A stretch of 64,000 nucleotides of DNA from Favolaschia claudopus (Eukaryota > Basidiomycota > Agaricomycetes > Agaricales > Mycenaceae). The stretch lies in the NCBI GenBank assembly GCA_037176885.1, contig JAWWNJ010000042.1, positions 744,001 through 808,000 on the forward strand, in the 5' to 3' direction. Positions 42,453-63,092 of this stretch are shown piece after piece; within the stretch, counting starts at the first letter, position 1; each line of letters starts with the position of its first letter. The position numbers and the translations under genes were made by a program. The notes under the pieces were generated by a model. It saw only the letters and a program-made list of their open reading frames with translations, ran no database searches and was not told the origin of the DNA.

Positions 42453-44249
42453 TGTAACGACTGGCCATTTTTGCGCGTTATATCTGGCTATTTTAAGTCA
42501 AGTGCGGCCCTAAACAACCCAACTACCCGCCACGACTATAGTCTTACTCGACTATCAATAGGAAGTCAGTACCTCTGTTGGTGACACTAAGGAGGGTCAA
42601 AGTGAGCTCCGAGCTGTTGACCGTAAAACCCATCACAGGAGAAAGGCATTATATTAATAGCCTACTGCAGTACTATGGATCTGTTCCATAACAGAACCCT
42701 CAGAAGAGTGACGAAGAGTCAAGTACTTGTGTACTACGGACTTAGACGAAGGTCTACAAGGATGTAGGAGGCGCCGCGGGGGCTATCAGAGTCAACATCA
42801 GTCAAAGGACAGATGCCGCGGGCTGCCGACTATAAATAGACGGCTGGAACAGCGGAAAGGGATCTCATACAGGAGATGCCGGTGCTAGGATCAGAAGGCA
42901 GAGTTATGGCAAGACATGAGGTCTTTGACAGGAGAGTTGATGATGTGATGCTGAAGCCGGACAAGTGCGGCAACTTCATTAGAAATCTATTTCTATATTG
43001 GAGTCAGCGCGGATGACTTGGTGGCTTGATAAATTGGACAACAGACGAGCCTGTGATATTGCGAGTGAATTGGAATGTCCCAAGAATAGTCTCAGGAGTT
43101 ATTAGAGGCGTTGATGGCACCACCGGAAGGGTTGCCGCCAGTGACGGATTGACGGGATCACCAATGATGGCGTTCCGCGGGCTTCCGCAATTCAGTGATT
43201 CAACCGTGGGAGTCATAATTGCTGACTTTCTACCGTTGGATCGACAAGCCAAGAGGCTGCCGAAGGTCCGCCGGGACACCCAAATACCAATATACCATCT
43301 CTCTACTCAATTGGATCGACATTGCTTACTCTGTACTATTTATGTGATGTATTTCTTGGCATTAGTATAAAAGGACCTGTATTTCTCGTTGAGCTGGAGG
43401 ACATCGCGCTCAGTCTATTGGACAGCGTTGGTGAACTCAGGCAGCAACGTAGAGGCATATATAAAGATATTGTCTACTCGTTTGTCTTAATAGAAATTGT
43501 GTTGAAGTTCAGTTCAAGTGTGAATCTAAGCATCGTTTCGAGAGTGTTCACCTGCGGAGGCTTTGCTTTCGAGTAGCTTTGTCGTGGCCTTAGTGTGCAA
43601 GGAACTGCCTGCCTCTACTGCCCGCGGACTGTCTATCTCATTGTAAGGATACGTGTGCTCGAGAGTGAACTAGTATCTCCCTGAGTCTGAGGAAGAGTGG
43701 AACTGTCCATCTGCTGAAGCATTGCGTTGGGACTGCTGGCGCATAACCGGAAGAGATCTGATTAGTCCTCGTCTGAAAGGCTTGTGCTATATAAAGGAGT
43801 GTCAAAGGTTCCTGGAATTTGGAGGTTCAGGTCTATAGTGTAACTGGCGCTATAAGAATTGTGCATTCTGCCGCGGAAACTGTCTGTGGCCATTGTTTCA
43901 ATCTTGCCCTGATATTCAACTGCGTTGGGTATCTTGTATCCTACCGTTTATAGTTCCTATTTTTAGGAAAGGTCCGCGGACGGAATCACTTCCATCTACG
44001 GTGTGTGAGAGCGTGTTTTGTGCAAGGTTCTTACTTGCAAGTCGACTTATATCCTCGTCACTGTGACATCTGGATTTCGGATCGAACCCCACGAACTCTT
44101 CGAGAGACATTTGAGTGTATCTTGTGGAGATATTTGTGTTGTAGTGTTGTGTGTGTTGGTTGATTGTGTTATATATATATTTTGGTGGTAGATTCTCTGC
44201 TGCGCTATATTTAGCACTTCAGTTGATATACTCAAGTGTCAGCGTTACA
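42453..44249 (+). repeat. 5' LTR, 1,797 bp
   Basis: Begins TGTAACG and ends CGTTACA (7-bp terminal inverted repeat). It is identical in my reading to 58726-60522. It contains TATA-like sites ACTATAAATAGA (about 42829) and GCTATATAAAGG (about 43786), and six CCGCGG sites. Several short frames inside are non-coding; their twins recur in the 3' LTR. Confidence 0.95.
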
Positions 44250-44251
44250 TC

Positions 44252-44270
44252 TGGAGCCCACCGCGAGGGG
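44252..44270 (+). other. Candidate primer-binding site
   Basis: TGGAGCCCACCGCGAGG follows the LTR after two bases. It starts with TGG, the complement of the tRNA CCA end. The tRNA species was not identified. Confidence 0.55.
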
Positions 44271-44785
44271 TTCGGTGGTAATTTGTTGATAAAACAAAAC
44301 GCGTTGCTGTAGTTGGGAGAGTCTAGAGAAGGGACTTTCCTGGGTTGTCGAGAATTCCAGCCCAAACCAATCCTCGTACTAGAAAGACGTCGAGGAGAGG
44401 CAGACACCAGCGTAGCCCGTCTCCATTAAATACAGGAGCAGGTGCCAGGAGTTTGCTAGAGCAAGCCAGGGTTGCACTACAAGAACCCGCTCAAACGTCG
44501 ACTTCAAGGAACAGTCTTATACCCGAGTCTGTAAATTGGGGACCCTCGACGTCTGGCAGAAAACCGCGTACGACCAAAAATTCCAGTACAGGACGGTCGT
44601 CTAGTTCGTCACCAGTTAAGAAGAGAAGGAGAGCGCGTTCCGCGGAAGTTATAAATACTTCTGCAGCATTACCTTTTGAGGGACACGCAACCCACTCGGA
44701 CGGCGAGCTATCTGATCATTTGAATCAGACCATCGAGGCTATTTCGAACTCCGTAGCCAAGATAAACCCCCCACAAACAAACACT

Positions 44786-46213
44786 ATGGCTACCTACGAC
44801 GAGATTGATAAGAGCAAAATCCCGGATATTTTTGGGAGACATAACCTGAAATTCGATGACGAAACAGGGGATTTGCCCAAGTATTTGGAAGGGATCGAAG
44901 ATATCATCGCGAAGCAAGGAAAGCTTAGTGAGCAGAGCAAGAAGTGGATAGCACACCACTATGCGAACAGTAAAGTGCAGAAAGAATGGCAGGCTTTGCC
45001 CACCTATACGAATGGAACGTATGAGGAATGGAAGGCGGAATTAATGGATGCTTATCCTGAAGTTCGTGCAGTAGAGAAAGGTTCCCGCGCGGGCTGGGCG
45101 TCTTTCTTGAAACAGTATACAGACCGTCCAGTGAGAATAGACGAGGAAGTTGAATTTGCCAACTATTGTCGAAAGTTCCGCGGACGAGTGGCAGTGATGA
45201 ATAAGGACCGGGAGATGCTTTCTAGGCGCGAGTTGGCGCAAGACTTTTTGAAAGGTATTCACCCTACCTTCAGGGAGACTCTTCGCAATATCGTGCTGGC
45301 CAGAAGTCCGACGGAACTTACTTCGTATCAGCGAGCAAAATCTGAATATGAAGCGCTGCCTGCGAACAAAGGAAAGGCCTATAAACCGGCCTACACTCAC
45401 CCTGATGACTTGTACGAGTGGGGAGACTTTGAGGAAATATTGAAGTCGTTGATCAAGAGTAATGACTCTATTTTCTTCACAACTCCCTCGGATACTAAGA
45501 GGAAGGCTGTTCTATTTTCGGGTAGTTCAGAGGGTGGAGATGAAGCGGCCAAGTTGAAGGCTAGATTGGAGAAGCTGGAGGCTGATTCCAAGGCCAGAGA
45601 GGAGAAAATTCTCCAGTCGAATAAGGAGATTGAGGACAAAGTGGAAAAGACCCTTGCCAATCATCTGGACAAGTTTGCGACGGACCAAAAACAGGTCATG
45701 TCCAAGATGCATGAAGCCTTGACGAAAGGGACTTCCAATTATCCTAGTCGTCCTGCAGAAAGAAGAGAATACGGTGGTGACAGACCATCGTATGCACCGG
45801 ATAGGCCGCCTCTTAGAGAAGGCAAGCCTACGGGCTGTTATTATTGTTGGGATCCTTCGCATTTTGTTGCGGACTGCAAGCACAGAAGGGATGATATTAC
45901 TGGGGGACTGCTAATCCTGAAAGATGGGCGTATGTTCTTCTATGATGGAAAGGCTTTGCCGCGGGAACCCAAGAATAAGAGCTACATGACCAAAGTGCGG
46001 GATTACTATAACAATCGTACTCAGGTGTATTATAACCAAGAGGCGTTTGAGTATTATTATGCTAGTGACCCCACTGCAGCAGCCGCGGAGTCGTTTGCGA
46101 GTGAATCCAGGGAAGAGTCAGACTCTCCTGCCACCGCGGATAGACTGGACAGAATCGAGGAGTCTGTTGCAAAGATAGCGCAGTTTATGGCGGCGCAGAA
46201 GGATTTTCAGTGA
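44786..46213 (+). CDS. Gag-like capsid/nucleocapsid protein of the retrotransposon
   Basis: Structural protein of the element. The first in-frame ATG is 44786 (ACTATGG context), but the frame is open back to 44327 with a Ser/Arg-rich stretch (about 44345-44785), so a non-ATG or spliced start is possible. After MATYDEIDKSKIPDIF come a capsid-like helical region (EWQALPTYTNGTYEEWKAEL, and RRELAQDFLKGIHPTFRETL), a coiled region (LKARLEKLEADSKAREEKIL) and a CCHC zinc knuckle CYYCWDPSHFVADC (CX2CX4HX4C, about residue 350, 45835-45876). After the knuckle, TGGLLILKDGRMFFYDGKAL resembles the DUF4100-type region of agaricomycete retroelements. The TGA stop (46211-46213) is followed five bases later by the ATG of the next ORF in another frame. 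No break. Confidence 0.85.
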   Translation: MATYDEIDKSKIPDIFGRHNLKFDDETGDLPKYLEGIEDIIAKQGKLSEQSKKWIAHHYANSKVQKEWQALPTYTNGTYEEWKAELMDAYPEVRAVEKGSRAGWASFLKQYTDRPVRIDEEVEFANYCRKFRGRVAVMNKDREMLSRRELAQDFLKGIHPTFRETLRNIVLARSPTELTSYQRAKSEYEALPANKGKAYKPAYTHPDDLYEWGDFEEILKSLIKSNDSIFFTTPSDTKRKAVLFSGSSEGGDEAAKLKARLEKLEADSKAREEKILQSNKEIEDKVEKTLANHLDKFATDQKQVMSKMHEALTKGTSNYPSRPAERREYGGDRPSYAPDRPPLREGKPTGCYYCWDPSHFVADCKHRRDDITGGLLILKDGRMFFYDGKALPREPKNKSYMTKVRDYYNNRTQVYYNQEAFEYYYASDPTAAAAESFASESREESDSPATADRLDRIEESVAKIAQFMAAQKDFQ

Positions 46214-46218
46214 TTCCG

Positions 46219-47595
46219 ATGAGGGAGACTCGCTCGCGGAAAGCTCCTGAGGATCCGAAAGCCAAAGACCGCGTTCCAGAAAAACAGAAAAACCAACAAA
46301 AAGATACAGTAGCCGAGAAAGATAATGGGAAAGAGCCCATTAAGCCAGCCAGAGAGAATAGAGTTGAAGTGTTGCTACCGAAGCGTTCCACTCAACCTAC
46401 GAGGAAAGTCACCGTTGAAGAAGTCAGTGATTCTGAGGACGAGTCGGTTGAGGTCAGAAGAAAGAAAAGAGGAGAAGAACTTCCGTTCAAGGATGTGAAA
46501 CCTCTATCTGACCCTCCCGTACGACCCGCGTTCCCGCGAAAACCAGCAGAGGAGCAACATGGCCAAGGGTCATCAGGTTCACGAAGAACAAGAGTGCCTA
46601 AAGATACTCAGCGGCGAGACAAAGCTACCGCGGAGATCGCAGACGCTATTCGGGAAACTGTGATACCAGTCAAAATAGGCACATTGCTGGATAGTAACGA
46701 GATGCTCCGGAAAACTCTTGAGATTGGGGGTCCGCGGAAGAACAAAGCTAAATTTATGAAGACTACTTCTGGTGATATTGTTCCTACCAAGGTGCACAAC
46801 TTTGTCGTCCAAAGGGTGCTTGAGGATGAAGACTCAGACTCTGAGAGCCCCGCGGATGATGAAAGTGAAGCAGAGGATAACGTTCGAGTTGAGACAACGA
46901 CTTGTGAAGTTGTAGATGAGGATGGAAAGACTGTGTCGGTGTTGATGTTTGACACGTTCCCTGAATTGGTTACCTCCAATGATCATGATTTACCGGAGGG
47001 AAGCGTTATTTGTGGGGACCCTGTCCTTCAATACTATGAGTCTCTACCAGAGGGAGAAAAAGCGAAAGCTGTTAAAGTCCCGGCCGCGGGCTCCTCTGCA
47101 AAGCTCAGATGCATTCATCCGTCAGTGAATGGCAAGTATGTGGAAGCCATTACGGATAGCGGCTCGCAGATTGTATCAATGAATGCTCAGTTGGCCAAGG
47201 AAATTGGTTTGACTTGGAATACAAATATAGTCTGTGAGATGGTTGCTGCGAATAGCCAGATTCAGTCCACATTGGGCTTGGCTATAAATGTGCCGTTTAA
47301 TTTTGAAGGGATAGTGATGCACCTTCAAGTTCATATTATTGATGAGGTGCCTTATGAAGTTCTTTTGGGACGCCCCTTCGAAATTTTGTCAGAAGCTGTG
47401 TTTGCGAGCAAGAGAACCGGCGAGGTCGAGATCACAATCACGGATCCGCGCACAGGGAACAAAAATACCTTTGCAACCTCTCAGAGGGGGGTCAAGATAG
47501 ATCGAGACACAGGAAAGCCAGTCCAGACAGCTCCCGCGGAGACCAAACCGGATTTTTGCAAGTCTTCGAGGAACTCAAAGATGGGGGAGAAGTAA
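46219..47595 (+). CDS. Retrotransposon protease ORF
   Basis: Separate ORF of about 458 codons in the -1 frame relative to gag, with the ATG at 46219. The N-terminal two thirds are charged and low in hydrophobicity (RSRKAPEDPKAKDRVPEKQK, and EEVSDSEDESVEVRRKKRGE). The C-terminal part is a retropepsin-like domain: KYVEAITDSGSQIVSM contains the catalytic DSG (about residue 312, 47152-47160), followed by a flap region and VPYEVLLGRPFEILSEAVF, the conserved Leu-Leu-Gly-Arg-Pro-Phe block. The stop TAA (47593-47595) overlaps the next ATG as TAATG. Having the protease in its own ORF between gag and pol differs from the usual gag-pol fusion. Expression by reinitiation or by -1 frameshifting are both possible. 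Confidence 0.85.
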   Translation: MRETRSRKAPEDPKAKDRVPEKQKNQQKDTVAEKDNGKEPIKPARENRVEVLLPKRSTQPTRKVTVEEVSDSEDESVEVRRKKRGEELPFKDVKPLSDPPVRPAFPRKPAEEQHGQGSSGSRRTRVPKDTQRRDKATAEIADAIRETVIPVKIGTLLDSNEMLRKTLEIGGPRKNKAKFMKTTSGDIVPTKVHNFVVQRVLEDEDSDSESPADDESEAEDNVRVETTTCEVVDEDGKTVSVLMFDTFPELVTSNDHDLPEGSVICGDPVLQYYESLPEGEKAKAVKVPAAGSSAKLRCIHPSVNGKYVEAITDSGSQIVSMNAQLAKEIGLTWNTNIVCEMVAANSQIQSTLGLAINVPFNFEGIVMHLQVHIIDEVPYEVLLGRPFEILSEAVFASKRTGEVEITITDPRTGNKNTFATSQRGVKIDRDTGKPVQTAPAETKPDFCKSSRNSKMGEK

Positions 47596-50500
47596 TGGCC
47601 GCGTTTGAGTACAACGACCATGGGGAGTTGGTGTGCACAGGATACGGTTTACCGAAAGAAGGGGATGTTGTTACGCAGGATGACAGGACGATGGCATATT
47701 TATTGGCGTCTAGGGACGCATTTGCAGGAGATAAGAATGCTAGTGTATTGTTGAATCAATACGCGGGGCAGGTAGAGAAAGATAAAGGCACAGATGTCTT
47801 CTTGTTCACGGAATCTGGAAGCCCGGGAAGCCCGAGAAAATCGAACCGTGGAAAGCATGCACCTAATCCGGGTGATAGCTCGGCTAAGTCTGCGTTTGCC
47901 TACATGGAGCGAGATTCCCGCGTGAATGATGATAAAGATAGTTCCGCGGAGGCGGCGGACCGTGCGCTGAAAGTGAACCGTAGAAAGCGAAAATACAAGA
48001 AGAAAAAGAAGAAGAAGAAGTCTAAGAAGACTTCGAAGGCAGAGGGAGCTAAGACAGTCCCTGCTGCGAGGGGGAAGCTGAATTTTGAAGTGCCGGTGCC
48101 GGAAGTACCAAGAGAGCAATTTATTTTTGGAAATTTGGGCATCTCTATGGGAAAACAGCGAGTATTTGCTACTAAGAAGTACAAACCGGTCGCGGAAAAG
48201 ATTAAGCCTATCCTTGGAAAAGTGGATGAGAAGTTCAGGATTGTGCGGAATATCACGGGGGATCCTTTAAAGGATATGCCAAAAATAGAAACGGATATTC
48301 CTGAGATTCACCCAGTAGGAAGATATACCGCGGAGCGAATGGAGGCATTTGAAAAGACTCATAACACTGGGTTCTTATTGCCTGAAGAGATGAAGTTGCT
48401 TCATCATTTTATGATGTTGCATAACGAGCATTTCGCCTGGGAAGAGGATGAGCGGGGGCAATTCAAACATGAATATTTCCCGCCCGTTGATATGCCTGTG
48501 GTACCACATACACCATGGGTATGCTCGCAAATTCCAATTCCGCCTGGACATTTTGAAGAGTTCTGCCGCATCATCAAGTCAAAATTAGATGCTGGGGTGT
48601 ATGAACCATCCAACTCGTCCTACAGGTCACCTATTTTTGCGGTGATAAAGAAAGATGGAAAGTCATTGAGAATTGTACACGCGTTAGAGAGGTTGAATGA
48701 GGTTACAATTCAACACTCTGGGGTACCTCCAGCCACGGAGAAGCTAGCAGAACATTTTGCTGGTCGAGCGTGCGGAGCTTCGTTGGATATGTTTGTCGGA
48801 TATGATAATAGGGACTTAGCGGAATCTTCAAGGGATTATACGACCTTCCAGACGCCGTTTGGGGCACTGAGGTTAGTAAAATTACCGATGGGATGGACCA
48901 ATTCTGTTCCCGTGTTTCACGAGGACGTTTGTACCATCTTGAGAGATGAAATGCCGCATGTAACGATCCCTTACATAGACGATGTACCTGTCCGCGGGGG
49001 ACCTACGAGGTACGAGACAAAAGATGGCGACTGGGAAAGGATTGCTGCGAATCCTGGAATTAGAAGATTTATCTGGGAACATCTCGAGAATTTAAATCGA
49101 GTTGTGACTAGAATGGCTTATGCAGGAGGAACTTTTTCAGGGAAGAAGTTGGTCCTCTGTGCGGATGAGTTTGAAGTTGTAGGGCATATTTGCTCTTACC
49201 GCGGAAGAATTCCCGATCCTAAGAGGGTGGACGTTATTAATAACTGGGGTCCCTGCGACTCTTTCACGCAAGTGAAGGCGTACCTGGGCACCGTGGGTGT
49301 TCTGAGGAGCTTTATTGAAGGGTACGGCGACATAGTTGCACCTATCAATGAGTTAACGAAGAAGGACGTTCCCTTTGTATGGACCGCGGACTGTGATGAG
49401 GCGCAGGCCAAAATTAGAGAAAGGTTGAAAAACTGCCCAGCTTTAAAACCCCTGCGGTACGACTGGGATTCGGACATAGTTATTCAAGTGGATACTTCAT
49501 GGAGAGCTGTAGGAATTATTATCTACCAGCTGGACCCAGATGATCCTAAGAAGAAATACTTTGCACGATTTGCGAGTATAACGTTAGGGAAGACCGAGGC
49601 GAACTATTCGCAACCTAAACGAGAATTGTACGGGTTGATGAGAGCTCTAGAGGCCATGTATTATTGGATTTTCGGAGCAAGGAAGCTTGTGGTTGAAACC
49701 GACGCGTTATACATCAAGGGCATGTTGAAAAACCCTGGAATGGGCCCCAACGCCACGATTAACCGCTGGATTGAAAAGATCTTGATGTTCCATTTTAAGC
49801 TGAAGCATGTCCCTGGTGAAAAGTTTGCACCCGACGGGTTATCAAGGAGAGATCCTTTCCCTGGGGATGAACAATTCAAAAATTCGGAAGAGGGTTATGA
49901 CCAAAATGAACCTCCCGAGGACCATGAGGACGTTTCCGCGGAAGGCCCACAGCCGTTGGAATTCGAGGACTTTAAACACCTTATTGATACCAGAGGTGGA
50001 TATTTCCAGTCGGAGGAGGAACAGCCAGAGATTGTGGACGTTGATGCAGTTTGTATGGAAGATTTCCAACGTGATTGCGAGAGTGCCAGGATGACTGAAG
50101 CTAATCTGGCGAGAGCACGCAGAGAAGCGTATTCGAGGGAGAATAAGCAGATCCCTGAGTATATTTTAATGACGGAGCCTCTGATTCCAAATTTAGAATT
50201 GAAATGGGATGAGGCGAAGCGAGAGCCTTACGATGAAGAGCATCGTTCGGATTGGATGAAAAAGCGAGATGCTAAATTACCATTGGTAAAGGAATGGCTA
50301 GCGGACCCTATGAAAAGGCCCGCGGGAATGAATGATGATGCAGAGTATAGAAGTTTTATGCGCTTCGCCTCACATTTCTTTTTGAAAGGGGGGAGGATGT
50401 ATAAGAAATCTTTTGGCACTGCGAATCAATTAGTTGTTGATAAGGAACACCGCATGTACATGATGAAGGCTGCTCACGACAGTCTGGGTCACCGCGGAAG

Positions 50501-51818
50501 TTATGCAACTAGAGAATTGATTACGCTGCGATTCTGGTGGCCAGGAATAGAAGCAGATGTATTTTGGTACATTGCGTCTTGCGACGCTTGCCAAAACCGA
50601 CAACATACACTGTTGAAAGTCCCGCCAGTTTTGACCCATACTCCAAGTCTATTTCAGGTCATCCATACCGATGTAATGGTAATGGGGCAAGTGTCCAATA
50701 AATGTGGACTAGTTGTTGATGCGAGGGACTCTTTGAGTTCTTGGTTAGAAGCGAGACCGCTTGTGAGAGACACGGCTCACGCAATTGGAATGTTCCTATT
50801 CGAGGAGATAATTTGCCGTTGGGGTTGCCCAAAGCAGATTGTAACGGATAATGCGGGGCAGTTCAAGAAAGCTGTGGAATGGTTGAAACAGAAATACGGA
50901 ATACCAAATATTCAGATTTCACCGTACAACTCTCAAGCGAACGGGAAGATTGAAAGTGGACACTTCCAAATGCGTCAGGCATTGTTCAAAGCGACTGGCA
51001 AGAACCCGTCTAAATGGTTCTGGTTCTTCCATGTTATGCTTTGGTCAGACAGAGTTACGGTTAGAAAGGGATTAGGTTGTTCACCTTATTTTGCGGTCAC
51101 AGGAGCGCATCCAATTCTACCGTTGGATATTGAGGAAGCTACTTGGTTGGTTGAAATACCAGGTCGAGTGTTGACGACCGCGGAACTGATAGGGCTAAGA
51201 GCCAGGGCTTTAGCAAAGCATGTTGCCCATGTTGAACACATGAGGAAGCGTGTAGATCATGCTAAAATGGTTCAAGTCCGTAAACTCGAACGGTACAATG
51301 AACATACGATTAAAAACTATGATTTCAAACCGGGAGATCTGGTTCTCGTGCGCCACACTGAAGTAGAGAAGTCTCTGAACTCTAAGATGGATCAGAAGGG
51401 GAGATACCTTGGCCCAATGGTTGTTATAAGACGTACCAAGGGAGGAGCGTATATCCTAGCTGAAATGAACGGCGCGTTATTCCATGACAGGATAGCCGCG
51501 GGGCGTGTGGTTCCATACTTAGCACGTCGCCGAATGCAAATTCCGCTCAACATCCAAAAGTTTATTGATGTATCTACGGAGACACTCGAAAAGCTAGTGG
51601 ACGATATTCCCACGGAAGGGGAAAAGACAAAGGAGCGCAGCTCAAAGAAGATAAAGGATCTAGCCTTCGATAAAGTAAATATAAGGGTAACACCTGAAGA
51701 CTTCGAAAAGGCTGAGTCCTCAGAATCGGAGACTGGGAACGATGATGATGAAGCAGAGTCGGACGATGAGCCAAAAGAGTCGGTTGGTCCTAGACGGTCC
51801 AAACGCAGGAAGCATTAA
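47595..51818 (+). CDS. Retrotransposon polyprotein: reverse transcriptase, RNase H, integrase
   Basis: About 1,407 codons from ATG 47595, which overlaps the upstream stop. The N-terminal part is charged, with a Lys run (about 47990-48030). RT follows from about residue 340: SSYRSPIFAVIKKDGKSLRI, FQTPFGALRLVKLPMGWTNS and the catalytic YIDD (about residue 460, 48972-48983). RNase H: IVIQVDTSWRAVGII, SQPKRELYGLMRALE and VVETDALYIKGML (about 49480-49710). Integrase: the HHCC motif in HDSLGHRGSY...CDACQNRQ (about 50476-50602), and the DDE triad in VIHTDVMVMG, QIVTDNAGQF and SQANGKIESGHFQ. A C-terminal SH3/chromo-like segment reads FKPGDLVLVRHTEV, ending in an acidic and basic tail. All catalytic residues are present and the frame is intact, consistent with a young and possibly active element. 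Confidence 0.93.
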   Translation: MAAFEYNDHGELVCTGYGLPKEGDVVTQDDRTMAYLLASRDAFAGDKNASVLLNQYAGQVEKDKGTDVFLFTESGSPGSPRKSNRGKHAPNPGDSSAKSAFAYMERDSRVNDDKDSSAEAADRALKVNRRKRKYKKKKKKKKSKKTSKAEGAKTVPAARGKLNFEVPVPEVPREQFIFGNLGISMGKQRVFATKKYKPVAEKIKPILGKVDEKFRIVRNITGDPLKDMPKIETDIPEIHPVGRYTAERMEAFEKTHNTGFLLPEEMKLLHHFMMLHNEHFAWEEDERGQFKHEYFPPVDMPVVPHTPWVCSQIPIPPGHFEEFCRIIKSKLDAGVYEPSNSSYRSPIFAVIKKDGKSLRIVHALERLNEVTIQHSGVPPATEKLAEHFAGRACGASLDMFVGYDNRDLAESSRDYTTFQTPFGALRLVKLPMGWTNSVPVFHEDVCTILRDEMPHVTIPYIDDVPVRGGPTRYETKDGDWERIAANPGIRRFIWEHLENLNRVVTRMAYAGGTFSGKKLVLCADEFEVVGHICSYRGRIPDPKRVDVINNWGPCDSFTQVKAYLGTVGVLRSFIEGYGDIVAPINELTKKDVPFVWTADCDEAQAKIRERLKNCPALKPLRYDWDSDIVIQVDTSWRAVGIIIYQLDPDDPKKKYFARFASITLGKTEANYSQPKRELYGLMRALEAMYYWIFGARKLVVETDALYIKGMLKNPGMGPNATINRWIEKILMFHFKLKHVPGEKFAPDGLSRRDPFPGDEQFKNSEEGYDQNEPPEDHEDVSAEGPQPLEFEDFKHLIDTRGGYFQSEEEQPEIVDVDAVCMEDFQRDCESARMTEANLARARREAYSRENKQIPEYILMTEPLIPNLELKWDEAKREPYDEEHRSDWMKKRDAKLPLVKEWLADPMKRPAGMNDDAEYRSFMRFASHFFLKGGRMYKKSFGTANQLVVDKEHRMYMMKAAHDSLGHRGSYATRELITLRFWWPGIEADVFWYIASCDACQNRQHTLLKVPPVLTHTPSLFQVIHTDVMVMGQVSNKCGLVVDARDSLSSWLEARPLVRDTAHAIGMFLFEEIICRWGCPKQIVTDNAGQFKKAVEWLKQKYGIPNIQISPYNSQANGKIESGHFQMRQALFKATGKNPSKWFWFFHVMLWSDRVTVRKGLGCSPYFAVTGAHPILPLDIEEATWLVEIPGRVLTTAELIGLRARALAKHVAHVEHMRKRVDHAKMVQVRKLERYNEHTIKNYDFKPGDLVLVRHTEVEKSLNSKMDQKGRYLGPMVVIRRTKGGAYILAEMNGALFHDRIAAGRVVPYLARRRMQIPLNIQKFIDVSTETLEKLVDDIPTEGEKTKERSSKKIKDLAFDKVNIRVTPEDFEKAESSESETGNDDDEAESDDEPKESVGPRRSKRRKH

Positions 51819-51874
51819 AGATTGTGGTGGTATGCGCCTCTGTAATCTTAAATTAGAACTTCTCCGCGGAAGGA
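51819..51874. other. Short gap between pol and antisense gene A
   Basis: Only 56 bp separate the pol stop from the end of the antisense gene. It holds one CCGCGG (51864). Confidence 0.5.
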
Positions 51875-54800
51875 TTAAAATGGGAGATCGTACTTGTCAG
51901 GCGATTCGACGGAGTGAATGGAGGTGCCAGGAGGAAGGAGCTTGGACATACGAAGCTCGACGAAGCCGAGAGCGGAGTTGTCGTAGCCGTGAAGGATGAG
52001 TTCCTTGCGCATGTAGGCGAGTTCATGAAGATCATCGATCTTGTTGACCGCTTTGATGAACTGGGCCTTGCGAGCCTTGATGGAAAACTCATGGTGGTAG
52101 GCGAAAGCTTCGTCAAGCTGGTTAAGCATGGTCTCCAGGTCGACGGTGCTGCGACCGAAGATGATAGCTGAAGGGGAGGATTAGCGAGGAATAAGTCTGG
52201 ACATCTATAAATGGACGCACCAGGACCCCCGCGCTTCTTCCAACTTTCGATCATCTTGTCCTTGCTGGTGAAGTCGCAAGGATGGAATTGAATAAGACAG
52301 TTGTGGCAAGGAGGACCCCAACTAGTAGGAGCGCAAGGCTCGACGTTGTGTTTCTTGGCGCAGCAAGAGCACTGTTCAGTCGGCTGGTGATAAAAATAGA
52401 TCAGTCGAAGTTGAAAGTAACAAGTACTGAGGACGCACCTTATTATCCTCCATAAGATAGATGGCAGCTTGAAACTTGGGAAGGATCTCGCTGACCGGGA
52501 CTATGATATCGCGTGCGAAGGCTGCGAGGACTGCGGCAGGATCCATTTCGTCGGGGCTGTCGTAGAGATAATCGTAGTAGTCGTCGTTCTCTTCGTCGTC
52601 TAAGCCGTGGATGCTCATGCAAAGAGAAAAGAATATTATGGGAGAAGACGTTCCTATGAGGCACTGTTTAAATAGTAAACACTGCTGAGGAGATGTCTTG
52701 CCTGTGATTATTTGAATCAGATTTTGTATTGATCATAAGCGGGACGGAAGAAAGTAAAGGAGTGAGACTTGAAGTCTAGGCTTGCCGAGACTTAGAGGCG
52801 CAAAATATCCAGTGGAATAAGGGCTTCAAGGAGCATGTAGGTGGTCACGGCAATGGAGTCGTTCACAAAAAGGCTTCCGCGGCGGCTTGAAGTACTTGAG
52901 AAGTTGAAGTAGAACTGGACGAGTGGAGTTCTATTTTTAGAATTCTGAGCGCGGAAAAAGAGTCTTACAGAACTCCTGAGATGTCCAAGACACTGCGGGA
53001 AATCGGACGAAGTTGGCTTGACAAAACAATTGTATTGCAAGCACTGCTAAGTATATACGAGACACCCGGGGATTTGGACAGTTGCTGGTTGAACAGCAAA
53101 TATGTGCGGTTGAACGCACGACGATACGATAGGGAACACTGAGAGTCGACGGTTTATGTGTCTAAAGAGCGAAGGCACATAGGTATATAGGCCGCGGAAG
53201 GACGATCAAGTCTAGAAGGCGGAAAGGTTTAACTGGAGAGCTATAAAAATAAACGCAGAGACATACCGCGGAACTAGCAGGGCGCATAATGGGATCCTCG
53301 TTGTCGGCGTGATGGATCTTCATGAGCTGCTCGAGCTGGTCATCCATCTCCTCGTAGGCGCGAAGCCAGTAGCGATACTTGAAGGAAGCGAGGGCCATGT
53401 TGCGGCGGAGGTAGCGCTCCCGAGCCTTGAAACCTTGCGCGTCCAAGTGCTTGAGTTGGTTCTGAGAGACCTTCCAAGTCTTGTTGACATCGTCCGAATG
53501 CATGATGGCGATGAGGTCCTTGTCCATGGAGTCTATAATAAAATTTAGACGAAATTAGCTCAAGGAGAAGATGAACTCGTACCAGGGACTTTGGGCTCGT
53601 AGTCGAGGTCGACGTCATCCGGTTCGGTACGGGCACGCTTGTTGCTGCGGTTGGACACAGGGTTCAACGACAAAGCAGGCTATGAGCGAGAATTAAGCAA
53701 AGAAACAGAGTTGACGAATATTTCACGCACCATAAGTGGTTCCGCGGGCGCCATCTACAACAATTGATGAACGTTAAGCGAGAATTCAACCGTGGGATAT
53801 GGGTTACGTACCTTCTCGTCCTCGTCAGGACAAGTGGAAGATGTGTCGGAGTTCTTCGCCTTGGGGCCTTTGCCCTAATAAAACGATGTTATAAAAATAG
53901 AACAAAGTGAAAAGGCGAACGCACAGGAACTTTACGAACATTTTTGAACATGTCCTCTGGAACGGGATCGTCAATGATGCGCACGGACTTGCCGTCGTCT
54001 TGAGGAGCCTTACCGGCAGGGATACCGTCCTTGGGTTTGACAGGGCAGTTGTCCTGGCCGTGCTGGTGGGAAGAGCAAGACGAACAAACGGAAATCTGGG
54101 TGAATGAAGAGGAAAGTGCAGAGGGATAAAAATAGACGCACAGTGTCGTTCTTGCCCTTGGGCGCACTGTTCTTCTGGAAGGAGAGACCAGGGGGCAAAG
54201 AGGAGCCTCCTGCGCGATAGTTGGCTCCCATGGCAGCGATATAGAGAGGGTTGATTCTACCTTCGTCCTTGTCGAGATCCATCTGGAGTTCGTTAATACC
54301 ACGAATAATCTTCGTAACGTCTGAGGAATACCTGATCAGCGACGGAAGCTTCCTCCGCGGAGTCGTCGTCCCCGGAGTCGTCGATGACTTCAACAGACTT
54401 ACCCTGCATTAGAGAGGACAGTTCAGGACCGCGAGGCATGCGACGAGCACGAGAAAGCACCTGTTGAACTTGAGCCTTAGCACGGTGGCCCTTGATGGCT
54501 GCCGCGGCCTTGTCGCGCTTGCTATTCTTGGCGTTGTGGTAGTTGTTGAGCATGCGGTCGATAGCGCCAAGCTGGGAAGTAGGGATCTTGAACTTGGAGA
54601 TCTTGTACTCGTGCCTCATAGCGTTGGAGGCGGCAGTAAGAGCATTGACGACCTTCTCGTTGGAGGGGTGCTGAAGGGACTGAGCGAATAGCTTGAAGTC
54701 CGACTAAAAATAGAACAGAGTCAGCGCGGAAAGCGTTTGGGCATGCAAAAATATGGACGAACCGCCGCGGCTGCGAACGTGCTGAGCGTAGAGTGAATGA

Positions 54801-54903
54801 CAGCCGCAGGGAGAGAGTCTCTGAGGGCGAGGACCCGTTGAAAGTCGCGTTCAGCTTCAAGGATAAGGTTGGACGCTTCGATGAGCGCAGAGCGTGGTGC
54901 CAT
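51875..54903 (-). CDS. Antisense gene A inside the retrotransposon: CCHC knuckle plus Cys6 cluster
   Basis: A multi-exon gene on the strand opposite gag-pol. Start ATG 54901-54903 (MAPRSALIEASNLILEAERD). Introns with GTTCGT, GTATTC or GTGCGT donors join in frame to DFKLFAQSLQHPSNEKVVNA, KISKFKIPTSQLGAIDRMLN, an acidic DDSGDDDSAEEAS stretch, then VCSSCSSHQHGQDNC (CX2CX4HX4C, 54049-54090), a perfect zinc-knuckle spacing. Later exons give MDKDLIAIMHSDDVNKTWKV, an acidic LDDEENDDYYDYLYDSPDEM, and QCSCCAKKHNVEPC followed by PCHNCLIQFHPC (CX2CX8CX8CX2CX6C, about 52285-52385), close to Zn2Cys6 spacing. It ends ESPDKYDLPF at 51875. At least nine exons. Many introns carry CTATTTTTA. The function is unknown; a nucleic-acid-binding accessory protein of the element is likely. 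Exon limits in 53550-53900 are uncertain. Confidence 0.65.
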
Positions 54904-55956
54904 GGCATGCGATGAAGGCCTGTAGGCGACGAAGAAATAAGCAGAGAACAGAAGTCAATTTATAGTTTTGACTAGGAGAGCGTGGTTAAATTGTTAATGA
55001 CCGGCTACGATCGTGAAAAACGAGCCAAGGCTGTTGGTTGCACCTCTAACTGAATTGAATATGCGAGGACGCATCTTTTTTCTTTAGTGAGGGGGAGAAT
55101 ATAGAGCAACAGACAACCGCGGGAGGGTATTGCGCCACCGCGGGCCTTGCAAATTTACCCATAAAGAGACAGGGAAATTTCGTTTTGCTAAAATTAGACG
55201 ATGTAGAGCTGGAGCGTTGCAAAAGCCAAGTTGCGGAAGAGTTTTAAGGCTGAATAATGTCGATCGGTTCCTATACGATCGATTTTAAGAGGCAGTTAGG
55301 GATGATAGTGGTTATTCTATTAAGCAAGAGGCTTGTGGAATATACATGCGGGAGTACAGAACTCTACGTTGAGTATCTACCGCGGTACTTAAGAGAGAGA
55401 GTTTAAACTGTGCTATAAATAGACCCGCGGAAAACTGAAAGAAGAGTAGACTAGAGGAAACTTTTTGACGACTTGAAGAAAAGTGTCAATTAAGTGTCAA
55501 GAATGACTTCTGATTGAAGCACAGGAGAAATTGGACTGATTCCAATAGAAGTTGAAGAAGGGTTTTGACGACGGACTTGGTCAAAATTCTGTCTTCGGCA
55601 ATCTCCGAAGGATTGATGACGGCATGATGGCCGGTTGATGTCGACTTGATGGATTTCTTTAAGACTGAAAGTCTTACGAAAGAGTTCACACGGTTGAATC
55701 AGAACATCAATAGGCGCCATTGGGCGCTAGTGCATTTAACTCTAAGTAGCTGGTTTACAGACAAAGTAAACTACCTATGGCTACTGAGTCGAGATATGTA
55801 CAGATTGTTTTTTTTAGTTGGTCTACGCTACGGCTGGAGACAACAGCACTACAGGAGAAATATCTTCGATTGTTTAAGGACTGGAAGAGGACAGTCCGAG
55901 TACATTCGTAAGTAGTAGTAAAAGTTCAAAACGAACGCGAGCAAAGTTCAGAGGAC
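54904..55956. other. Retrotransposon-internal spacer between antisense genes
   Basis: About 1.05 kb without a supportable exon on either strand. It holds four CCGCGG sites (55117, 55138, 55380, 55425) and a TATA-like GCTATAAATAGA near 55411, which may serve as promoter for antisense gene A or as terminator for gene B. Confidence 0.5.
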
Positions 55957-57884
55957 TCAACCGCGATCAACCTGCTTGCCCTTGTCCGCCTTGGACGGTG
56001 TTTCAACTCCCTTGCCTTTGCGCGCCTTTGACGAACTGGGAGTAGGGGACTCCAACAAAGGGGCGGGACCAAACGCAGGCAGCGGTGTAGAAGGCGGAGC
56101 CGCAGGCTTGGGAGTGGAAGTCGACGCAGCTGGTTTTGCAGGGGACGCTGTTTTTGAAGAAGAAGCACCCGCGGGGGTCAAGTCGTTGAAAGAGGCGATG
56201 GGACGAGCACGCGGATCCACTGTCTTCAACACACCCTTGAGGTCTAAGTCGGGAATGATACGATTGGAAAATTCCGGGTGATAGACGTGTCCGACGACAG
56301 CGCCCGAGTCGTCCGTAACAGGCTTCGCGCTGGAAGTAGCCTCGTGCGCGACAAAGTCCTGTTCCAGTTCGTGGAACGAACGTTTGGAGAGGACGTGTGC
56401 GACGAACTCCCGCGCAAGGTCAGACCCTTCCTTGTCCTCGAAGAAATCATCGAACTGCTCGACGGCGAGGGAACGCTCAGCACCAGAGATAGTGAGGGCG
56501 GTGTCCTGAGCCTGGAGACAGAGATTGTTGATGGCGCGGGTATGAGCGAAGCTGGCGAATTGCGCGTCTTCGTAAGCTTGGACCAGGCGCTGGAGAGCGG
56601 CGGCAATGGTGTGCGGCGCCACCGCGTTGAACGGGCGCATGCACTCCACAAACCGCTTGAAGGTGGTGGGCGTCCAGGTAAACGAGCACTTGTGCTTGTA
56701 CTTCGCGCAACGGCTACAAACAGTGGAGCGGCCACCGACGGGTCTGCATTCGGCGTAGTTGAGAACGCAGTTGAGGCAAGGGAAAGCGACCTTGGAAAGC
56801 AGCGGCGGCACCAGAGAGCTCTGCACGTAAGCCGTCGGAATCTTCATGTGCGCGGGAGCAGGAAGACCTAAAGGAAATGAAAGATTTAGTAAAAGATATG
56901 CATGAGGTAGGAAGGATAAGGGGACTTACCGGTCTCTGGAATATCAAAAAACATTTGCAGCAGCTCCGCGCGAGTCGTAATGTCAATCGAGGGTTCAGCA
57001 GGCGTGGCGGAACGCTCAGGCTGAGGTGTAGGGGAGCGCTCTGGAGAAGGTGTCATAGCCTCACGTCGGCGTTTGGTGGGAGGCGGCCCGTCGTCGTCAG
57101 AGTTCTCGCTGTCAGACATCATAGCAGCCCGGGCTCGGCGTCTGGGTACGGCGACAATGGAAGGGATGGTAAAGTCCCCGCCGATGTGCTTAGCGTTGGG
57201 GTCCGCGGTAATGATAGCACCTTGGAGTTCGGCAGAAGGACGAAGGTTGCGGTAAAGAGCGATGAGCTCTCCCGCGTGGTCGTCTTCGACAACCTTCGCG
57301 ACGTGACGGACGACGTTGGAGAGAGCCCAGAGAAAGGCCTCAATGCTGAGGGGCAAGTCGGAATGCGCCTCGCGATAATGAGCCTAAAACCAAGAAGGGT
57401 TAACAAAAAGGCAGAAAAGTTAGAGAAAAGGGAGACTCACCAGGACAGGAGAAAGCGCTATCACGCTGCGTACTTGTTCGACCGAGGGCGGCGGTGGCTT
57501 CTGCACAAAGAGAGGAACCAAGTCGCGGGCAAGACCGTTATCGAACGGGGCCCACAACGAAGCAGATGGGTCGTCGGAAGGAATCTGAGGCGGCGGAATG
57601 AAAAACGGAGGCGCTGCAGGACGCTTGGGGACGACGACGGGCTCCTCGGCAGGTGGCGATGGGGCTTTGTGAGAAGAAGAGGCTGCAGGAGGTTCTGGAG
57701 ACGGAGACGCCGACTCTTCTGATTCTGGAAGATCGGGCTCGACGTCTTTGGGCAGAACGACGGAGGAACGGCCAGGGCCCACTTTAGCACCGGCTTTAGT
57801 CTTGCGCGGACGCTTAGTGGAGGCCATGGTGGTCTTGCGGGTAGAACGACGAGTTGGTTCGGCGGTGCCTTTCTTAACGGGCAT
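55957..57884 (-). CDS. Antisense gene B inside the retrotransposon: Zn2Cys6-like cluster protein
   Basis: Three exons on the strand opposite gag-pol. ATG 57882-57884 (MPVKKGTAEPTRRSTRKTTM), exon 1 to about 57440 with a basic lead and a Pro/Ser region; exon 2 (about 57385-56932) with SIEAFLWALSNVVRHVAKVV and an acidic/basic PPPTKRRREAMTPSPERS stretch; exon 3 (about 56867-55957) joined after a GTAAGT donor. Exon 3 holds FPCLNCVLNYAEC then VCSRCAKYKHKCSF: spacing CX2CX6CX9CX2CX6C, exactly that of fungal Zn(II)2Cys6 binuclear clusters, with a CxxCxxxKxKC-like second half (about 56690-56790). Helical segments follow (FHELEQDFVAHEATS) and a Pro/Ala/Ser tail with SKARKGKGVETPSKADKGK. Zn2Cys6 proteins are DNA-binding regulators. 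A role in controlling the element is inference. All three introns would be retained in sense genomic RNA. Confidence 0.65.
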
Positions 57885-58715
57885 ACGTCCGGCGACGAGC
57901 ACCAGAGGGAGGTGATTGTTGTGGATGAAAGAGTAAGAGAGAGTCCAAGCAGAGGGCTACTCGGCGACGTAGGCGTCGAGGAGCGCGTCGAAAGGCCAGG
58001 TAGATAACCAAGGAGACAGCCACAGGGTGTAAAACACTGTGTGTGGTGGTGGTGGAAGGAAGGAAGAAGTGGGCGCTAAGAGACGCACCCACTCAGTCTA
58101 TAAGTCAGCGCGGACTTAGAGAAATTTTCTCTAAGTCGCCACGCCTTCAGAGGAACTGAATTGAAAACTCAGTGACTCACCTAGAAGGAAGCACAGAAGA
58201 TGAAAGTTAATCTAGGGCGCAGCCGCAGTAATTAGAAGCCAGTATTAAGGTTTGATGAAAACCTGAAGCTGATTGCCAGGGCAGAGGCGGCCGCGGCGAA
58301 AGATAAGTCGGAGGAACAGATTAGATAAAACGGAAGTGCAAACGCACTTAGGATTAGGGTTAGCGAGAGCCAGGACGACGAAAATTTGACCAAGTCGAAG
58401 AATATAAGGAAAAGAGGTGAAAAACCCCTGTCCGCATATTTCAGACAGAAAGTGTCAATGACGTCATATGCCGTAATGATTGGCGTCCGCGGAAGCAACT
58501 GTCTAAATTAACAGACGGAACGTCTTAGCGAGTAGTGCAGGAGGACTTGACTAAAAACAAGTCGCTCGAGGAAAAAGGGACAGAAAAGTAGTTTGCAGTT
58601 GGTCTAAAAATAGACGTCCGCGGGAGTTGTCATCCTTGCGGTCCACTAGATTTAAAGCCAAAAATAAGCACGGATTTTGGTGCAGGCTATAGACCGGGGA
58701 CGGTCTAGATTTAGT
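57885..58715. other. Retrotransposon-internal region before the 3' LTR
   Basis: No exon is supported. It contains three CCGCGG sites (58291, 58487, 58618) and CTAAAAATAGACG near 58604, and probably serves as the promoter of antisense gene B. Confidence 0.45.
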
Positions 58716-58725
58716 GAAGGGGAGA
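58716..58725 (+). other. Polypurine tract
   Basis: GAAGGGGAGA sits immediately before the 3' LTR, the expected position of the plus-strand primer. Confidence 0.75.
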
Positions 58726-60522
58726 TGTAACGACTGGCCATTTTTGCGCGTTATATCTGGCTATTTTAAGTCAAGTGCGGCCCTAAACAACCCAACTACC
58801 CGCCACGACTATAGTCTTACTCGACTATCAATAGGAAGTCAGTACCTCTGTTGGTGACACTAAGGAGGGTCAAAGTGAGCTCCGAGCTGTTGACCGTAAA
58901 ACCCATCACAGGAGAAAGGCATTATATTAATAGCCTACTGCAGTACTATGGATCTGTTCCATAACAGAACCCTCAGAAGAGTGACGAAGAGTCAAGTACT
59001 TGTGTACTACGGACTTAGACGAAGGTCTACAAGGATGTAGGAGGCGCCGCGGGGGCTATCAGAGTCAACATCAGTCAAAGGACAGATGCCGCGGGCTGCC
59101 GACTATAAATAGACGGCTGGAACAGCGGAAAGGGATCTCATACAGGAGATGCCGGTGCTAGGATCAGAAGGCAGAGTTATGGCAAGACATGAGGTCTTTG
59201 ACAGGAGAGTTGATGATGTGATGCTGAAGCCGGACAAGTGCGGCAACTTCATTAGAAATCTATTTCTATATTGGAGTCAGCGCGGATGACTTGGTGGCTT
59301 GATAAATTGGACAACAGACGAGCCTGTGATATTGCGAGTGAATTGGAATGTCCCAAGAATAGTCTCAGGAGTTATTAGAGGCGTTGATGGCACCACCGGA
59401 AGGGTTGCCGCCAGTGACGGATTGACGGGATCACCAATGATGGCGTTCCGCGGGCTTCCGCAATTCAGTGATTCAACCGTGGGAGTCATAATTGCTGACT
59501 TTCTACCGTTGGATCGACAAGCCAAGAGGCTGCCGAAGGTCCGCCGGGACACCCAAATACCAATATACCATCTCTCTACTCAATTGGATCGACATTGCTT
59601 ACTCTGTACTATTTATGTGATGTATTTCTTGGCATTAGTATAAAAGGACCTGTATTTCTCGTTGAGCTGGAGGACATCGCGCTCAGTCTATTGGACAGCG
59701 TTGGTGAACTCAGGCAGCAACGTAGAGGCATATATAAAGATATTGTCTACTCGTTTGTCTTAATAGAAATTGTGTTGAAGTTCAGTTCAAGTGTGAATCT
59801 AAGCATCGTTTCGAGAGTGTTCACCTGCGGAGGCTTTGCTTTCGAGTAGCTTTGTCGTGGCCTTAGTGTGCAAGGAACTGCCTGCCTCTACTGCCCGCGG
59901 ACTGTCTATCTCATTGTAAGGATACGTGTGCTCGAGAGTGAACTAGTATCTCCCTGAGTCTGAGGAAGAGTGGAACTGTCCATCTGCTGAAGCATTGCGT
60001 TGGGACTGCTGGCGCATAACCGGAAGAGATCTGATTAGTCCTCGTCTGAAAGGCTTGTGCTATATAAAGGAGTGTCAAAGGTTCCTGGAATTTGGAGGTT
60101 CAGGTCTATAGTGTAACTGGCGCTATAAGAATTGTGCATTCTGCCGCGGAAACTGTCTGTGGCCATTGTTTCAATCTTGCCCTGATATTCAACTGCGTTG
60201 GGTATCTTGTATCCTACCGTTTATAGTTCCTATTTTTAGGAAAGGTCCGCGGACGGAATCACTTCCATCTACGGTGTGTGAGAGCGTGTTTTGTGCAAGG
60301 TTCTTACTTGCAAGTCGACTTATATCCTCGTCACTGTGACATCTGGATTTCGGATCGAACCCCACGAACTCTTCGAGAGACATTTGAGTGTATCTTGTGG
60401 AGATATTTGTGTTGTAGTGTTGTGTGTGTTGGTTGATTGTGTTATATATATATTTTGGTGGTAGATTCTCTGCTGCGCTATATTTAGCACTTCAGTTGAT
60501 ATACTCAAGTGTCAGCGTTACA
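58726..60522 (+). repeat. 3' LTR, 1,797 bp
   Basis: Same sequence as 42453-44249, offset 16,273 bp. It ends CGTTACA and is followed by the ACGG target duplication. Confidence 0.95.
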
Positions 60523-63064: not shown

Positions 63065-63092
63065 CAGGGACTTGCTCCGGAGCAAGTCCCTG
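63065..63092. repeat. Perfect 28-bp palindrome
   Basis: CAGGGACTTGCTCC (63065-63078) is followed immediately by its reverse complement GGAGCAAGTCCCTG. The left arm is preceded by a direct repeat of CTATCAGGGAC (about 63046 and 63061). It could extrude as a cruciform or end transcription. Confidence 0.85.

Follow-up and report, generated by a model that had tools for sequence, protein, structure and literature searches.

A Ty3-type retrotransposon of Favolaschia claudopus with three spliced antisense genes, a swappable gene B and a dispersed CCGCGG palindrome

The plant Ty3-type long terminal repeat (LTR) retrotransposons Retand, Grande and RIRE2 carry antisense open reading frames between pol and the 3' LTR, and the function of these accessory genes is described as unknown in the available sections of the account that covers them (PMC11963269). 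Here we analyse a 64,000-nucleotide stretch of DNA of the basidiomycete Favolaschia claudopus (G000:C42:744001-808000 of a 264.6-Mb assembly; hereafter the window), which holds at 42453-60522 an 18-kb Ty3-type LTR retrotransposon with three spliced genes, called C, A and B, on the minus strand between pol and the 3' LTR. An earlier note on this DNA had mentioned the antisense frames of plant Ty3 elements, in agreement with the published account; the plant and fungal elements share a long region between pol and the 3' LTR, antisense genes, a young age and a suspected DNA-binding or regulatory role of the products, as far as the available text goes (PMC11963269). In that text, the TRP28 domain is reported from 97% of Retand clusters (PMC11963269), whereas a search of Pfam-A found no match to it (PF04195) in A, B, C or the B homolog of the related family described below. 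The same sections do not use the word "intron" and name no variable cassette or dispersed motif, and about half of the elements there have tandem repeats (PMC11963269). The F. claudopus element, unlike those of plants, belongs to a basidiomycete and has three multi-exon antisense genes, two of them with six-cysteine clusters. A spliced antisense regulator of an LTR element is also known from deltaretroviruses: HBZ, a lone basic leucine zipper (bZIP) gene close to the 3' LTR. From plants, genes in antisense orientation downstream of pol are already known. So far as open-access titles and the first parts of abstracts show, with subscription papers mostly outside, no fungal LTR element has been described with antisense genes, zinc-cluster genes or a motif of this sort; three multi-exon genes in a fungus, a swappable B and a dispersed palindrome likewise did not turn up there.

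Further comparisons concern proteins by which a mobile element acts on itself or on its host. VANC of the Arabidopsis VANDAL transposons is an element-encoded protein that finds its own element through a dense short motif and removes silencing (PMC5735166). In the part of that work available, VANC has both conserved and highly variable regions, and its motif is dense in its own element and rare elsewhere, which are points of likeness to our locus (PMC5735166). VANDAL nevertheless represents a different transposon class from the F. claudopus LTR element, and no sequence link to VANC turned up, although no search aimed at VANC was made. Ty1 resembles our element in that an LTR element encodes its own regulator, but the regulator comes from gag on the sense strand and is not, in the available text, a separate variable gene like B (PMC4599808). 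Fungal DNA transposons carrying a TET/JBP dioxygenase likewise have a gene that possibly counters host silencing; they differ in being DNA transposons, in encoding an enzyme and not a zinc-cluster protein and, in the available part of the source, in the absence of any mention of antisense genes (PMC12730594). Lastly, two zinc-cluster proteins of yeast, Pdr1 and Pdr3, bind TCCGCGGA, which is known as the pleiotropic drug response element (PMC5539612). The likeness of our locus to fungal Zn2Cys6 regulators that use everted CGG pairs, Pdr1/Pdr3 and Leu3 among them, lies in the six-cysteine spacing and in a candidate target palindrome of the same form.

The introns of the antisense genes are 46-62 nt long with GT-AG ends (Table 1), and the public annotation of the F. 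claudopus genome has the same spliced B, beginning at the second methionine (P0001, 583 amino acids, 100% identity). The earlier note had proposed several GT-AG introns joining in frame, which is borne out by this annotation and by other copies, where frame and junctions are kept. It had proposed two genes, which are indeed antisense and spliced; its gene A, however, covers two separate genes, A and C, which brings the count to three, and the variant cysteine cluster and the zinc knuckle that it placed together lie in C and A, respectively. A single long gene comprising A and C is ruled out: the spacer between them carries indels in copy L048, and the same start ATG of C is found in the nine copies translated. 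The gene A model is least secure at its last intron and at the junction of exons 2 and 3, both of which were set so as to keep the frame open in other copies. We note that two 10-mers, TAAAAATAGA (five times) and CTATTTTTAG (three times), recur in introns and spacers; on inspection by eye, several of them coincide with antisense introns in A and C. The introns would persist through retrotransposition, as that note reasoned and as we judge right, since they are not introns in the sense genomic RNA. Homologs of B at E <= 0.001 were hypothetical proteins of F. claudopus only (four and five, among 7987 and 7994 candidates scored), and none was found for C among 192 candidates scored from the protein database.

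The antisense zone of ten further copies, chosen by their match to B, was fetched for comparison. The earlier note had allowed that other copies might lack this segment, but they carry it: B is present in all ten (in L050 without exons 1-2), and A and C both lie at the expected place in eight, the exceptions being L049, which holds a nested element, and L043, which is cut off before C. Both GT-AG introns of B and an open frame with no internal stop are kept in nine of the ten (not in L050), with exons 61-98% identical between copies, exon by exon, and introns 45-89% identical to those of the window, the splice sites being kept nonetheless. The ratio of nonsynonymous to synonymous substitution rates (dN/dS) for B is 0.06-0.18 over 45 pairs, leaving out the partial B of L050, with dS above 1 in 33 of the 45 and up to 2.5. 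For A (L049 left out), dN/dS is 0.10-0.23 between the window and other close copies and 0.27-0.36 against the diverged copy L048, the value of 0.36 coming from the frameshifted L042; the window and L048 differ by 82.5 nonsynonymous changes over 982 sites and 71.5 synonymous changes over 296. The frame of A is intact in nine of the ten copies read, window included, and the frameshifted A of L042 gives 0.64 against the window up to its first stop. For C (L043, L049 and L050 left out), dN/dS against L048 is 0.36-0.47, with the frame kept there and 78-80% amino acid identity; C is 98-100% identical among eight copies, window included, and one of the 76 genome matches listed for its third exon (150 of 347 candidates scored) has an internal stop.

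Judged by these ratios, A, B and C are all under purifying selection, where the earlier note had left room for frames free of it. Because frames and splice sites persist despite the divergence of B, and because dN/dS is low, we take all three to be coding. Reverse frames can be open by chance, and the antisense frames might in principle be such frames or an artefact of assembly; purifying selection, kept splice sites, the presence of dozens of copies and a homolog in a second family refute this, and we regard it as next to impossible. The kept frames, splice sites and dN/dS likewise rule out chance open frames as candidates in their own right, and the dN/dS of B rules out positive selection or hypermutation as the source of its diversity. 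Two of the copies are altered in the compared zone: LTR-like sequence replaces exons 1-2 of B in L050 (by eye), and L043 ends within the A-C spacer and is followed by unrelated sequence.

Gene B differs from its surroundings in how it varies. Seven complete copies are 99.0-99.2% identical to the window in the LTR, 97.6-98.2% in the N-terminal part of gag, 98.1-98.7% in reverse transcriptase, 98.1-99.6% at the end of pol, 98.4-98.9% in C and 97.6-98.6% in A, yet their B exons are 69-82% identical in two copies and without a DNA match in five (Blast identities, covering aligned parts only; 12 LTR pairs were obtained from 40 scored of 448 candidates, and 7 of the 11 other pairs were fully compared). 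Among the ten copies selected through B, eight have an A that matches the window at 98% identity; in L048 the figure is 88% for A and 86% for C, and A of L049 could not be read. Five copies (L051-L055) have at the same place a B homolog of a second type, with four exons, 544-558 amino acids and the six cysteines kept, that is 32-34% identical to type 1 as protein; these models were built with a simple search for splice sites, and in four of the five an in-frame intron was then removed by hand. Among nine of the 12 LTR pairs, seven are identical within the copy, one has 1 mismatch and one has 10; carriers of both B types were therefore inserted recently, and decay of old copies is ruled out as the origin of B divergence.

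Association with B type was not detected for distances in A-C (P 0.86, 12 copies; L043, L048 and L049 excluded by choice, L053 absent because its anchor string was not found), gag (P 0.67, 9 copies) or pol (P 0.69, 8 copies), while the 3' LTR, which adjoins the B block, follows B type weakly (P 0.028, 14 copies) and the stretch between B and the 3' LTR does so strongly (P 0.0006). Among the 76 matches listed for C exon 3, 60 have a B partner 2.5-6.5 kb away on the same strand (39 of type 1, 21 of type 2) and 16 have none among the B matches listed; C identity is 92-98% in 70 and 76-82% in six, and both B types occur in both groups (37 and 19 in the first, 2 and 2 in the second). L043 is a mosaic within B, its exons 1-2 resembling those of the window (91 and 93%) and its exon 3 that of L042 (92%). 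Comparison of the copies indicates that B is a swappable cassette whose diverged lineages sit on a uniform backbone, and at least fourteen further B-like matches at 30-31% suggest more B types or families.

A related family, family 2, is represented by an element nested in L049, a family-1 copy that it splits between B and A. Its LTR and part of gag are about 66% identical to those of the window over the compared stretch, with gag 61% identical as protein. A B homolog was found at the predicted place (L063), antisense and just before the 3' LTR, with 579 amino acids in two exons, 28-31% identity to both B types and a cluster of the form CX2CX6CX12CX2CX6C; the element was read in two pieces and the two-exon model was set by eye. 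Two B types within a family of about 98% gag identity (32-34% apart) are thus nearly as distant as B between families with 61% gag identity. We also note that the nested element lies at G000:C69, from about 1305815 to 1323.7 kb, with a 722-bp overlap of its two LTRs identical, and that a family-1-like C match at 1326810 is where the interrupted copy should resume.

How several old B lineages came to lie on one backbone admits more than one account. We think it probable, because the exchanged block adjoins the 3' LTR, that pieces of B were shifted by template switching; reverse transcription would have jumped from one co-packaged RNA to another and so placed several ancient lineages on the present backbone. 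Such transfer might need no selective cause at all: a recent sweep of the backbone could have taken up B pieces of older families by strand transfer near the 3' end, reverse transcription starting near that end after the first jump, and the position of the block, the mosaics within B and the B of the related family all fit. The same process should, however, have brought in diverged A and C, and among the nine of ten B-matched copies with a readable A only L048 is diverged (88%, with C at 86%), 70 of the 76 C exon-3 matches listed are at 92-98%, and the block ends close to the borders of the B unit; we consider this account possible but rather unlikely. Alternatively, B could be a self-directed repressor for copy-number control or superinfection immunity, with rare B types escaping the residents so that many lineages persist. 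In its effect such a repressor would be like Ty1 p22, and in its genetics like the immunity repressors of phages. The pattern does resemble an immunity region, in that several old B lineages share a uniform backbone and no association with A-C, gag or pol was detected, and p22 is, in the available part of the Ty1 literature, an existing self-encoded restriction factor. A type-specific target of such a repressor should nevertheless covary with B, and gag, pol, A and C do not while the 3' LTR does so weakly, which makes a repressor decidedly improbable.

The second unusual feature of the element is the palindrome CCGCGG, which occurs 49 times where 4.3 would be expected (z 21.5); the runner-up among palindromes reaches z 2.7. 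This amounts to 2.7 per kb, or about one per 370 bp, with 2.5-3.8 per kb in LTR, gag, protease, pol, spacers and A; B has 1.0 per kb and C none. Outside the element, the window contains 11 sites where 14.3 would be expected (0.24 per kb over 45.9 kb), and 44.4 kb of flanks elsewhere in the genome have 15 (0.34 per kb), so that, as for VANC, the motif is dense in its own element and rare in the other DNA in which it was counted. When CCG and CGG are separated by 0 to 12 nucleotides, the excess lies at zero spacing (49 against 3.2 expected), the next highest count being 9 at a spacing of 4. Codon usage as the cause is ruled out by synonymous shuffles: the gag, protease and pol frames have 5, 5 and 11 sites (20 distinct, as the windows overlap) against 0.73, 0.55 and 0.92 in shuffles, and the observed counts were reached in none of 1000 shuffles of each frame. 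The motif is intact at 8 of 8 sites in L048 at 87.7% identity and at 7 of 8 comparable sites in family 2 at 66% identity, where there are 6 further sites.

Conserved zinc-cluster genes occur in this element together with a conserved CGG palindrome, and we suggest that the gene products read the palindrome. Our favoured interpretation, to which we give a probability of roughly 0.45, is that zinc-cluster proteins encoded by the element read the dispersed CCGCGG sites and regulate or protect copies of their own kind, with B lineages being swapped on the backbone. The element would be an active-looking Ty3-type lineage whose antisense region holds three protein-coding genes spliced by the host; B, and perhaps C, would be nuclear zinc-cluster proteins that bind CCGCGG across the element and act on all copies of their own kind. 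The sequence itself shows the gene structures, purifying selection, diverged B lineages on a uniform backbone, and a CCGCGG motif that is enriched and kept between families; expression of the genes, binding of zinc and DNA, the binder of the motif, its effect and the cause of B diversity are inferred. The most likely purpose would be to keep the element transcribable despite host silencing, or to tune its transcription, as VANC does for VANDAL. Since the motif is constant while B varies, and is also found in coding sequence, C may read CCGCGG, with B as its partner and the variable regions of B directed at a host factor or at other elements; B diversity would be kept by an advantage of rare types against a host factor or resident elements. 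A wider proposal, that of retrotransposon self-recognition in which a palindromic word marks the whole element, the antisense zinc-cluster set is its reader, and B lineages reassort under frequency-dependent selection as an immunity or identity locus, seems to us doubtful.

Six-cysteine clusters bear on this interpretation in both directions. Zinc clusters of the Zn2Cys6 type have the spacing CX2CX6CX5-12CX2CX6-8C, which B follows with X9 in type 1, X8 in type 2 and X12 in family 2, and the six cysteines are invariant across B proteins of only 28-34% identity, one from the related family included. The spacing CX2CX6CX9CX2CX6C was given exactly in the earlier note; its description as exact Zn2Cys6 stands for the spacing but not for the Pfam score or the basic residues, which in B lie in the second half of the cluster, whereas Gal4-type domains have them in the first half. 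Matches of the cut-out cluster to Zn_clus are weak: with E values of up to 10 allowed, five of seven members gave one, and even the best (E 0.0074) stays under the cut-off. Its profile match to the Leu3 DNA-binding domain is weak too (E 0.12). B also departs from fungal Zn2Cys6 regulators in being encoded antisense in a retrotransposon. The cluster of C, counted by eye, departs from standard Zn2Cys6 spacing and has no Zn_clus match. A CHCH (CX9C) fold was rejected for B, which has CX2C spacing, despite a profile match at E 0.0053.

Several results weigh against the proposal that element-encoded proteins read CCGCGG. B misses the Pfam Zn_clus (PF00172) cut-off of 21, with 9.8 bits for the whole protein and 16.7 for the cut-out cluster; the CHCH protein outscores Leu3 in the same profile search; and the predicted structure of B exon 3 is poor, with a mean predicted local distance difference test score of 44. 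Density of the motif is similar in type-1 and type-2 zones, on a shared backbone, which means that motif recognition alone leaves B diversity unexplained, and outside the B block there is no clear covariation with B type, only a weak one of the adjacent 3' LTR. VANC motifs, in the available text, are noncoding tandem repeats that diverge with the protein, whereas CCGCGG sites are single, also coding, and constant while B varies (PMC5735166). Among close copies (26 of 30 loci used for the LTRs), variation is seen in 4 of 126 motif columns, compared with 450 of 8172 columns outside the motif and 68 of 844 at other CpGs, which is a small signal. The LTR uniformity of the seven complete copies is partly by choice, since they came from an LTR search; their identities in the other regions are free of this effect. 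The binder could also be the conserved gene C or a host protein instead of B. Alternatively, CCGCGG might be used by a zinc-cluster activator of the host or act through chromatin, drawing in host transcription or holding the element open, while A, B and C act otherwise, for example by countering host RNA silencing or in particle assembly; in yeast, TCCGCGGA is bound by zinc-cluster activators of the cell itself (PMC5539612), CCGCGG does not follow B type, and A has a gag-like CCHC knuckle. This would require, however, that a zinc-cluster gene and a CGG palindrome had come together in the same element by coincidence, and the dense sites within gag and pol exceed the needs of a promoter; we find it improbable.

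If the proteins do read CCGCGG, the element would offer a fungal retrotransposon counterpart of anti-silencing by VANC. The B cassette is a case of old allelic lineages kept in one retrotransposon family, and would open transposon self-recognition, or host-transposon conflict, in basidiomycetes to experiment; function is directly testable here, since the genes show clear signs of selection, one of them is swappable and a candidate binding word is at hand. The earlier note understates the locus, as the third gene, the swappable B and the dispersed CCGCGG went unseen there.

Table 1. Features of the F. claudopus element (positions in the window)
Feature	Position	Strand	Details
5' LTR	42453..44249	+	1797 bp; TGTAACG...CGTTACA ends; target-site duplication ACGG
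CCGCGG sites (49)	42774..60252		6 per LTR; also in gag, protease, pol, spacers, A; B 2, C 0
gag frame	44327..46213	+	open frame; own CX2CX4HX4C knuckle CYYCWDPSHFVADC, read by eye
protease frame	46144..47595	+	gag-asp_proteas 31.4 bits (cut-off 28.2); overlaps gag and pol frames
pol frame	47358..51818	+	reverse transcriptase - RNase H - integrase, Ty3 order
gene C	52618-51875	-	exons 52618-52439, 52383-52221, 52167-51875; 211 amino acids; CX2CX8CX8CX2CX6C
gene A	54903-53206	-	nine exons; 426 amino acids; CX2CX4HX4C knuckle in exon 4
gene A exons	54903-54763, 54703-54332, 54282-54142, 54095-53925, 53874-53812, 53754-53731, 53679-53583, 53532-53267, 53211-53206	-	
exchanged block	55530..58725		similarity to type-2 copies ends at about 55.53 kb, returns stepwise from 57.9 kb to 3' LTR
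gene B (variable cassette)	57884-55957	-	exons 57884-57441, 57383-56930, 56867-55957; 602 amino acids; CX2CX6CX9CX2CX6C
3' LTR	58726..60522	+	99.0-99.2% identity to seven other copies

The element has paired LTRs with TG..CA ends, identical at 1797 of 1797 bp by self-alignment, a 4-bp target-site duplication (ACGG/ACGG) and the order protease - reverse transcriptase - RNase H - integrase, and is Ty3-type. In Pfam, the pol frame matches RT_RNaseH (49.6 bits) and Integrase_H2C2 (60.4 bits) above the cut-off and RVT_1 below it (20.8 bits, cut-off 29.6); the same search found no Pfam gag match in the gag frame. Each of gag, protease and pol (44327-51818) has a frame of its own that overlaps the next, an arrangement that would seem to call for two -1 frameshifts. 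Directly after the 5' LTR, 44250-44275 resembles a primer binding site, with unusually long complementarity by eye to the 3' end of a transfer RNA, including the T-arm. Target-site duplications match in eight of nine copies and are CG-centred, of the form NCGN (ACGG, CCGC, ACGC, CCGT, ACGT, GCGT, ACGC and GCGG), which suggests that integration prefers sites with a CpG at their centre; the copy on C12 has unequal 4-bp flanks. Outside the element, self-alignment finds a perfect 28-bp palindrome at 63065-63092.

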